From positions 1-32,533 of the forward strand of contig RFSW01000008.1 in NCBI GenBank assembly GCA_009923755.1: DNA of 32,533 nt, written 5' to 3'. The stretch comes from Betaproteobacteria bacterium (lineage in GTDB: Bacteria > Pseudomonadota > Gammaproteobacteria > Burkholderiales > UBA3065). Numbering within the stretch: position 1 is the first letter of the stretch; every line of letters starts with the position of its first letter. The position numbers were made by a program, and so were the translations under genes. Under the pieces are notes generated by a model. The model did not search any database. It was not told where the DNA came from and saw only the letters and a list, made by a program, of their open reading frames with translations. Below, one piece after another: positions 6,861 to 11,083 of this stretch.

Positions 6861-8942
<2,082 letters not shown>

Positions 8943-8967
8943 TGGCCTCGACAGTCCGCACCGTGTA

Positions 8968-8984
8968 TCTAGTCGAAGACTAGA
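8968..8984. promoter_or_regulatory. Perfect palindrome TCTAGTC-GAA-GACTAGA
   Basis: The arms are 7 bases with a 3-base centre, 27 bases before the carbonic anhydrase GTG start. It could be an operator overlapping the transcription start or an RNA hairpin in the leader. It shares its arm-GAA-arm form with the dyad at 2105-2121, but not its sequence. Confidence 0.35.
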
Positions 8985-9011
8985 CAACCGACCCCGCCAT
9001 GGAGGCACCCT

Positions 9012-9863
9012 GTGAGAAAGATCGCGACGCTCCTGCCCATCCTGCTGACAGTTTCCGCCGCAGGCCAGGCGCAGGAATCAGCACCTCAAGCCGATGGCAA
9101 AAGCCTTGCCACGCAAAACGCTGCGCTGCGCAGCAACACGGAGGGCAGGGGCTTTGGACCACAGTCGCCGAGAGACCTCGACAGGAAGTCTGGCTACAAC
9201 CAGCGCATCTTCGCCACGTCACCGCCTGCAAGCCTGATGAATCTCTGCAACATCCACTTCCACAAGAACGCTGAACACAAGGGCGGCGAGTTCACCACCT
9301 TTGCCGGCTACGGGGATGGGCACGGCCACGGCAGTGGCTACACGTTCTCGGGTTCGCTGACGCCTGCTGAGTCGCGGCCTTTAGATGCGGAGGTGTGCGT
9401 CGGCGACCACGGCGGTCTGCAGGTGGGCGACACCATCGAGGTTCACTACGTCCACAGTTCCGCACAAGTACAACCAGGGCCGACCCTTGGCGCCTGCTTG
9501 AGCGAAGGCGTGAGCAATCCGCAATTGCGCGTCGAGGCGCAAGTGTTCGTCCTGGTCAACGACGCAGCCGCAGTCGACTTCACCACAGTCACCGCACTGG
9601 GCCGGGCGAATGGCTTCCACCAAGCCACCAAGCTCCCACAGAACACCGGACAGCCGATCAACTACAAGGGCTCCACTACAGGCCCGGCCTTCAACGAGAA
9701 GGGATCACCCCTACAGGTATCGTGGAGCGTACGACCGAAAGTACTCAAGGTCGATGCAGCCTCGGTCGGTCGATGGTGCAAAGACAACGTGTTCAAGGAA
9801 GACCACGCCCACGGCGTTCGCAATCTGATCGTCGACGAGTTCCTACTGTCCACGATGCAGTAA
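9012..9863 (+). CDS. Secreted delta-class carbonic anhydrase
   Basis: Predicted periplasmic enzyme for reversible CO2 hydration. GTG at 9012 has GGAGG six bases upstream and gives a signal peptide (MRKIATLLPILLTVSAAGQA, cleavage likely near residue 20). The block NLCNIHFHKNAEHKGGEF (residues 77-94) is what I recall for bacterial delta-class enzymes. H82, H84 and H89 are candidate zinc ligands, by analogy with the HxH pattern of alpha-class enzymes. A histidine and glycine-rich YGDGHGHGSGY (100-110) and a C-terminal EDHAHGVRNLIVDEF follow. Cysteines 79, 129, 162 and 256 could form disulfides, as expected for an exported protein. It stands alone between tRNA-Ile and a small membrane protein. 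Codon use looks less GC-biased than its neighbours, which may reflect transfer. The family call rests on memory of the motif. Confidence 0.72.
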   Translation: MRKIATLLPILLTVSAAGQAQESAPQADGKSLATQNAALRSNTEGRGFGPQSPRDLDRKSGYNQRIFATSPPASLMNLCNIHFHKNAEHKGGEFTTFAGYGDGHGHGSGYTFSGSLTPAESRPLDAEVCVGDHGGLQVGDTIEVHYVHSSAQVQPGPTLGACLSEGVSNPQLRVEAQVFVLVNDAAAVDFTTVTALGRANGFHQATKLPQNTGQPINYKGSTTGPAFNEKGSPLQVSWSVRPKVLKVDAASVGRWCKDNVFKEDHAHGVRNLIVDEFLLSTMQ

Positions 9864-9868
9864 GCGGC

Positions 9869-9900
9869 CTTGAGCGTCATCGCCCGAATTCCGGCTCAAG
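9869..9900 (+). terminator. Possible hairpin after the carbonic anhydrase gene
   Basis: CTTGAGC (9869-9875) and GCTCAAG (9894-9900) are perfect inverted copies separated by 18 bases, starting 5 bases past the stop codon. No T run follows, so it is only a weak terminator candidate. Confidence 0.3.
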
Positions 9901-10037
9901 TGATCCACTGACAGCAACGGTCTGCCCCTCCAGCCGCGACCACGCCACCCCGGTACAACATCGTTTCGCAACAAGTGACAAGATTTACGACAACGCTGGT
10001 GTACACTTTTCCTGACAATGCTCGTCGGGAGATCGCC

Positions 10038-10289
10038 TTGAACGCCTACATCTGGTTTTTTCTGCTGTTCGGTGCATGCTTCGGAGCGCTTAGCTTTTCC
10101 CGTCGCCATTGGTTCAGCGAGGGACCGCAGAAGCCGGCCGGCGACAACGGTGCAACGGCAACGATGGCGAGTCGACTGTTCTGGGTGATGGTGTGCACCT
10201 TCCTCTGGCCGATCATGTTGCTGACCGGCCTGAACTCGGCATGGATCCTTGCCAAGCGTAAATCGGGCCCGTCGCACGCCAGACGCTAA
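10038..10289 (+). CDS. Small hypothetical membrane protein
   Basis: I do not recognise this family. TTG at 10038 with GGGAG six bases upstream gives 83 residues, starting NAYIWFFLLFGACFGALSFS after the initiator. An in-frame ATG at 9975 would give 104 residues but has no ribosome site and a less natural N-terminus. Two hydrophobic segments are visible, about residues 4-17 and 46-66. A basic, polar linker separates them and a basic tail (KRKSGPSHARR) follows, so it is probably a two-span inner membrane protein. The gene lies alone between the carbonic anhydrase and the acyltransferase, with 122 to 174 bases on each side. Confidence 0.55.
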   Translation: MNAYIWFFLLFGACFGALSFSRRHWFSEGPQKPAGDNGATATMASRLFWVMVCTFLWPIMLLTGLNSAWILAKRKSGPSHARR

Positions 10290-10411
10290 GCGCCTCACCC
10301 AACAACGGCGCCAGGCCGTAGCAAAACTGAGACTCGCCCCCTCGCCAGCGATGGTCTGACACCGGCTGGATGTGTCACGATATCGGTAGTCAAAACAAGC
10401 GAGATGCCACG

Positions 10412-11038
10412 ATGAATGGCGCGGGTGTGTGGTTGTTCGGAGCCGGCGGTCACGCCAAGGTCGTTATTGATTGTGCCCAGAGCGCCGGGATCCCGCTCCT
10501 TGGCGTCTTCGATGACGATCCGTCCCTACTTGACACGACGCTGTGCGGCCATCGAGTGCTCGGCGGTCAGAAGGAAGCCGCCAGCATGCTTACCGACCAC
10601 CCGGGCGCCGGTTTCGTCATCGCGATCGCACAAAACGATCTCCGCGCCAGCCTCGCCGCCTGTTTGCCGGGCGCAGCCGCGCCAGCTCTGGTCCATGCCT
10701 GGTCGATGGTGGAACGCTCGGTCTCGCTGGGAGGCGGCACCGTGGTCTTTCCTGGCGCAGTGATCAATGCCGACACTCGCATCGGTCATCATGTGATCGT
10801 CGACACCAGCGCGAGCATCGACCACGACTGCGTGCTCGGCGACTTCGTCCATATCGGGCCGGGCGCCCGTATCTGCAGCGGTGTGCGGCTTGGCGCGGGC
10901 ACGTGGGTCGGGCCAGGTTGCGTCATCGCACCCGGGGTCAAGGTCGGCGCCAGTTGTGTGCTCGGCGCAGGCGCCCTGGTGCTCGAAAGCATCTCGTCCG
11001 GCACGCGCATGGAGAGCATTCCCGCGCATCGGCTTTGA
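10412..11038 (+). CDS. NeuD/PglD-like sugar O- or N-acyltransferase
   Basis: A left-handed beta-helix acyltransferase of 208 residues. An N-terminal nucleotide-sugar binding fold has the GAGGHAKVV loop (residues 9-17). Hexapeptide repeats run from about residue 95 to 200. DHDCVLGDFVHIGPGA holds the histidine that acts as base in PglD, the acetyltransferase of bacillosamine synthesis. NeuD O-acetylates sialic acid. The substrate here cannot be told from sequence. I chose ATG at 10412 because it starts directly before the first strand; an upstream ATG at 10370 would add 14 poor residues. No other glycan gene is near, which is unusual for the family, as these normally sit in surface polysaccharide clusters. 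It converges on cydB. Confidence 0.85.
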   Translation: MNGAGVWLFGAGGHAKVVIDCAQSAGIPLLGVFDDDPSLLDTTLCGHRVLGGQKEAASMLTDHPGAGFVIAIAQNDLRASLAACLPGAAAPALVHAWSMVERSVSLGGGTVVFPGAVINADTRIGHHVIVDTSASIDHDCVLGDFVHIGPGARICSGVRLGAGTWVGPGCVIAPGVKVGASCVLGAGALVLESISSGTRMESIPAHRL

Positions 11039-11083
11039 AGCAAGCCGAGGGCACGCCGCGCAAGCGACGCCCAGCGGGCTGCC

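Follow-up and report, generated by a model that had tools for sequence, protein, structure and literature searches.

The gene described here very probably encodes an exported carbonic anhydrase (CA) of the delta family (Table 1). It lies in a window of 32,533 nucleotides, the whole stretch of DNA that was analyzed, from a Burkholderiales bacterium, and is an ordinary member of a known family that was correctly recognized in the original prediction. PF10563 was the sole Pfam family reported for the window protein up to an E value of 10 (258.8 bits, against a curated cutoff of 26.3), with the match covering profile positions 2 to 181 of 181, which upholds the delta-class call. The profile search of the cadmium and delta families that had been proposed as a check returned the delta family at E = 4.2e-77; the cadmium (zeta) family was rejected, having no Pfam match up to an E value of 10.

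Assignment to the delta family

Neither the alpha profile PF00194 nor the profiles of the beta, zeta, theta, and iota classes (PF00484, PF18484, PF18599, and PF08332, accessions as given in a passage of PMC8119650) matched the window protein up to an E value of 10. In addition, no NCBIfam model matched it, and no PDB chain was found in sequence searches with the window protein or with the profile of alignment A1. Two bacterial alpha CAs scanned with Pfam gave PF00194 matches only. The window protein resembles the delta type, TWCA1/TweCA of Thalassiosira weissflogii (PF10563/IPR018883), in its full-length profile match and conserved histidine core. It differs from the diatom type in being bacterial, in its Sec-like N-terminus, and in belonging to a host genome without a RuBisCO match; this comparison was made at the level of the profile.

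The N-terminus of the window protein (VRKIATLLPILLTVSAAGQAQ) is hydrophobic, like those of exported proteins. On inspection and under a hydropathy rule it resembles an export signal, consistent with the signal peptide claimed in the original prediction. Of 115 distinct homologues, a simple rule assigned a hydrophobic N-terminal segment without a lipobox to 81 and a lipobox-like motif to 10; the remaining 24 had neither, and several of them look like fragments or like proteins whose starts were called too far downstream.

Table 1. Features of the carbonic anhydrase gene and its product (window coordinates; residues of the window protein)
Feature	Position	Strand	Basis
Delta carbonic anhydrase gene, GTG start, 283 aa	9012..9863	+	ORF call; PF10563 258.8 bits, E 4.2e-77
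GGAGG ribosome-binding site, GTG 6 nt downstream	9001..9005	+	Sequence
Probable Sec signal peptide, residues 1-21	9012..9074	+	Inspection (charged n-region, hydrophobic core, AxA-like end); hydropathy rule over homologues
PF10563 domain, residues 74-251	9231..9764	+	Pfam
H82-x-H84-x3-E88-H89, proposed metal ligands H82 and H84, predicted strand 77-87	9255..9278	+	Homologue conservation; DSSP of models
GDGHGHG segment, residues 101-107, unconserved	9312..9332	+	Homologue comparison
E143-x-H145-x-V-H148, proposed third ligand H145, predicted strand 141-149	9438..9455	+	Homologue conservation
GSTTGP, residues 220-225, proposed counterpart of alpha-class GSLTTPP block	9669..9686	+	Conservation; hhalign alignment
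W238, invariant, proposed counterpart of invariant alpha Trp	9723..9725	+	Alignments

Conserved motifs and the putative metal site

Across two alignments of 58 (A1) and 101 (A4) relatives, H82, H84, E88, H89, E143, H145, GSTTGP, and W238 were invariant, and H267 was invariant in A1 and nearly so in A4. The comparison was extended to 115 distinct proteins drawn from the 120 best-scoring loci of species-level, genus, order, and phylum searches. Because this sampling was biased toward top scores, 20 further, mostly weaker-scoring copies from the phylum were also read (one of these, L177, appears to come from the same contig as L055). Both HxHx3EH and ExHxV[HYF] were present in all 115 distinct homologues and all 20 further copies, and GSTTGP in 115/115 and 19/20 (the exception reading GSTTGR). 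The block NIHFHKNAEHKG singled out in the original prediction occupies residues 80 to 91 and includes H82 and H84, which had been numbered correctly. In both structural models, DSSP placed H82 and H84 on one predicted strand and E143 and H145 on another. The third putative metal ligand, beside H82 and H84, is most likely H145. A three-histidine metal site is stated for delta enzymes in passages of PMC8132391 and PMC8425729.

The histidine-rich GDGHGHG segment was indeed present where the original prediction had placed it, but the weight given to it found no support. The exact string occurred in 1 of 115 distinct homologues, namely the window copy, and in none of the 20 further copies; even the looser pattern G[DN]GxG was absent from 6/115 and 6/20, and the stretch was deleted in three Oxalobacteraceae copies (L010, L011, and L014). 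As judged by this comparison, GDGHGHG is a peculiarity of the window copy and no family feature.

The most divergent delta CAs that we encountered were L116 and L120 (order family f24), which sit on long tree branches. Another divergent copy, L164 (genome G401), is 43% identical and has GSTTGR in place of GSTTGP. All three would make good subjects for structural study and for probing the importance of individual residues.

Resemblance to alpha carbonic anhydrases

Both predicted structures of the window protein resembled alpha CAs at the level of the fold. AlphaFold was run on the whole protein with 58 alignment rows (model 1; pLDDT 89.3, pTM 0.86) and on residues 30 to 283 with 101 rows (model 2; pLDDT 90.6, pTM 0.91). 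Foldseek detected 103 and 48 PDB chains, respectively, below an E value of 0.001, with top E values of 2.0e-5 and 3.0e-5; among the 50 matches listed for each model, superposition was poor (TM 0.24 to 0.37, rmsd 13.7 to 17.5 Å). These best 50 PDB matches, like those listed by VIA-align, were alpha CAs or CA-like domains, apart from a few titles without a protein name (such as 1mua and 1cvh, which we take to be human CA II). VIA-align gave best Z scores of 8.2 for model 1 (170 residues, 4.8 Å) and 8.3 for model 2 (169 residues, 4.8 Å), scores near 8 being at the level about which the tool itself warns, and aligned model 2 with the alpha CA of Helicobacter pylori over 129 residues at 3.1 Å (22% identity, Z 7.7). 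In a library of viral structures, the single match below 0.001 was OPG105, presumably of the vaccinia D8 family; the top seven matches there comprised five of OPG105, one of carbonic anhydrase 1, and one without a name. With both models, the CA-like domains of PTPRG/PTPRZ and vaccinia D8, which we take to be inactive, scored about as high as the enzymes in VIA-align, and the fold alone is therefore no proof of activity.

At the sequence level, in a 14-row alignment of alpha enzymes from bacteria of this phylum (A2; 16 of 24 loci passed the pattern, and L152 and L155 were left out), HxHx3E, ExHxVH, and GSLTTPP...W follow one another as their counterparts do in the delta family. This order (HxHx3E, ExHxVH, GS-TT-P...W) is common to the window protein and the PF00194 enzymes of H. 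pylori, Photobacterium profundum, and humans (CA II). The two differ in spacing, with 59 residues between the second histidine and the glutamate of the next motif in the window protein versus 15 in the first A2 row, and in the presence of GSTTGP where alpha CAs have GSLTTPP. The window protein also contains, in order, the alpha motif set HxH, E, ExH, TT, and W, whose catalytic role is known from human CA II, according to a pattern written after both families had been viewed. A three-part motif search matched 101 of 120 delta loci and 16 of 24 alpha loci, with at most one matching frame per locus among 6,667 frames in 161 loci; the only remaining matches, L131 and L132, both hold delta genes already counted. 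Because the pattern postdates our viewing of both families and the alpha enzymes had been picked with a related pattern, this search is a consistency check and no independent test.

The two families were also compared profile against profile. When the delta profile was compared with the alpha profile by hhalign, the GSTT block was aligned (probability 34.5, E = 4.1e-4), a result that is weak alone. In a separate comparison of our own, with the columns set differently, the score was 22.0, which is not significant because the best of 60 column shuffles reached 25.5 (reversed profile, 16.8); its three alternative local alignments covered the HxHx3EH block, the signal peptides, and the GSTT block.

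Taking fold and motif order into account, it is likely that delta and alpha CAs share ancestry. We consider it fairly probable that the delta class did not arise independently but is a branch of the alpha fold that has diverged and carries insertions, that it uses the same ligands, and that it is a widespread exported bacterial enzyme, of which the diatom enzymes would be a possible offshoot. In a table of PMC11184937, delta (IPR018883) is entered beside alpha under "Carbonic anhydrase" with 641 predicted trefoil-knotted members; this agrees with the fold comparison, and the idea of shared ancestry is thus partly in print. The abstract of PMC8132391, by contrast, calls the CA classes evolutionarily unrelated, and a passage of PMC6009927 stated in 2018 that delta enzymes had neither a crystal structure nor a homology model.

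Distribution among bacteria

Delta CAs had been expected to be rare in bacteria, which proved wrong: the family is widespread, occurring in many Pseudomonadota and some Campylobacterota, and its name already stands in public annotation. Scanning a single genome of each species with a sequence pattern yielded 459 loci. Among the best 80 of the 459, which were kept, the hosts were Beta- and Gammaproteobacteria, an Emcibacteraceae bin (Alphaproteobacteria), a Magnetococcales bin, and Campylobacterota. Of 398 genomes sampled across the phylum, 77, belonging to 31 of 213 genera, carried PF10563; this rate is inflated because 52 of the 77 come from one family (f68). The order and the phylum are taken to be Burkholderiales and Pseudomonadota, since copies from their sampled genomes coincide with copies from named hosts (L118 with L012, and L089 with L060). 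PF10563 was also found in 10/399 sampled genomes of the order and in 2/5 genomes of the genus, own genome counted; three congeners (G001, G003, and G004) had no PF10563 match, G003 being only 79% complete. Plasmid records gave eight matches, seven of them annotated "delta-class carbonic anhydrase": four from Shewanella baltica, two from Pseudoalteromonas, and one from Piscirickettsia salmonis, at 49 to 61% identity over 84 to 99% of the protein. In the two plasmid contexts inspected, transposase or recombinase genes lay nearby; the window copy instead adjoins a tRNA gene and is surrounded by housekeeping genes. The 22 pattern matches in viral contigs included no relative. One record titled as Klebsiella pneumoniae isolate MsE-01oct19-120 (L003) carried a CA protein identical to that of the congener G002, and this title looks wrong.

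The printed picture of the delta class is narrower. In passages of PMC8132391 and PMC13098186, the class is said to be confined to microalgae and protists or to occur mainly in diatoms and protozoa, and the latter paper reports that BLAST with delta, zeta, eta, and theta returned <2% of the putative CAs found for alpha, beta, or gamma. One list of bacterial CA classes, in PMC8425729, omits delta, and the diatom enzyme TweCA was described in 2019 as the only delta enzyme characterized (PMC6968676).

Genomic context

Upstream of the CA gene lie dnaG, rpoD, and tRNA-Met(cat) (8808 to 8886, ARAGORN), the last possibly, on our reading of the loop context, a CAU tRNA of the Ile2 type. Downstream are an ORF resembling a small membrane protein and lacking a Pfam match, a gene for a PglD/hexapeptide protein, and then cydBA on the opposite strand. 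As the original prediction had noted, the gene is isolated: the 29 window ORFs scanned, some of which are probably not genes, included no member of a CO2-fixation or bicarbonate-transport family. Among 434 ORFs adjacent to 81 loci, the largest cluster was shared by only 6 loci, five of them Colwellia, and we therefore conclude that there is no operon partner. RuBisCO (PF00016) matched in none of the five genus genomes and a beta CA in all five, own genome included in both counts. No alpha CA matched in the own genome; as this genome is 83% complete, absences from it are weak.

The gap between tRNA-Met and cydB (8887 to 11083) was variable on inspection, holding the CA gene and a hexapeptide transferase-like gene in the window and a chemotaxis-receptor-like gene in the congener G001. 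The ORF resembling a membrane protein (10038 to 10289) showed DNA similarity downstream of CA in the window and in G002, and also in G001, which has no CA gene there. The interval separating the tRNA from the CA gene contains two short hairpins, TTACACGCAAGCGTGTAA (8925 to 8942) and CTAGTCGAAGACTAG (8969 to 8983); the region as a whole folded no better than shuffles (z = -0.50), and a promoter scan of 8880 to 10060 found none.

The CA gene of the congener G002 has a different location, again directly downstream of tRNA genes, here two for tRNA-Lys. A quick tree placed the window copy beside the G002 copy (support 88) in a mostly Burkholderiales group of 16 (support 96). Import of the window copy from outside was considered from the gene placement in G001 and G002; the tree, which puts the copy inside the mostly Burkholderiales group, lends such an import no support.

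Alternative explanations and proposed mechanism

The gene could encode a protein with a CA fold that has lost catalysis and now binds a metal or a ligand in the periplasm. PTPRG/PTPRZ and vaccinia D8, whose CA-like domains presumably set a precedent for such loss, are among the closest folds, the host genome already has a beta CA, and our search of open-licence papers found no experiment on, or activity of, a bacterial delta enzyme and no assay of a bacterial member. We nevertheless regard this explanation as unlikely: dead relatives would hardly retain the ligand motifs in 115/115 and 20/20 proteins, or GSTTGP in 115/115 and 19/20.

It is quite improbable that the protein is a CA with another main substrate, such as COS, or one whose main role is to buffer periplasmic zinc through its histidines. 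No neighbor family recurs beyond 6 of the 81 loci, the histidine-rich GDGHGHG is unconserved, and the CA also occurs in hosts named Thiomicrorhabdus, which are chemoautotrophs. What speaks for one or the other of these roles is the result for RuBisCO in the genus (0/5 genomes), the histidine-rich N-terminal tails of several homologues, and the efficient hydrolysis of COS by a clade of beta-class CAs (passage of PMC13098186). That an alpha-class CA has been mislabeled as delta is barely credible, even though the motif order is the same and alpha CAs are the top fold matches, and is already contradicted at the profile level, where PF10563 scored 258.8 bits and PF00194 went unreported up to an E value of 10.

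As an exported delta-family CA, our preferred reading, the window protein would leave the cytoplasm through Sec and then fold in the periplasm round a single metal. This metal is most likely Zn(II), with H82, H84, and H145 as its proposed ligands, and the enzyme probably works in an alpha-like manner. The metal-bound hydroxide would be oriented by E143 and a threonine of GSTTGP and would attack CO2 (CO2 + H2O -> HCO3- + H+). In a Burkholderiales bacterium without a RuBisCO match, its role may be CO2/bicarbonate exchange at the cell boundary, alongside the beta-class enzyme present in all five genus genomes searched.

Taken singly, the gene is ordinary. Its interest lies in the narrow printed picture of the delta class, set against the presence of the family in many bacteria, and in the putative alpha-like active site. 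A bacterial delta member with such a site could supply a structure and could decide between shared ancestry of the delta and alpha classes and the view that they are unrelated.
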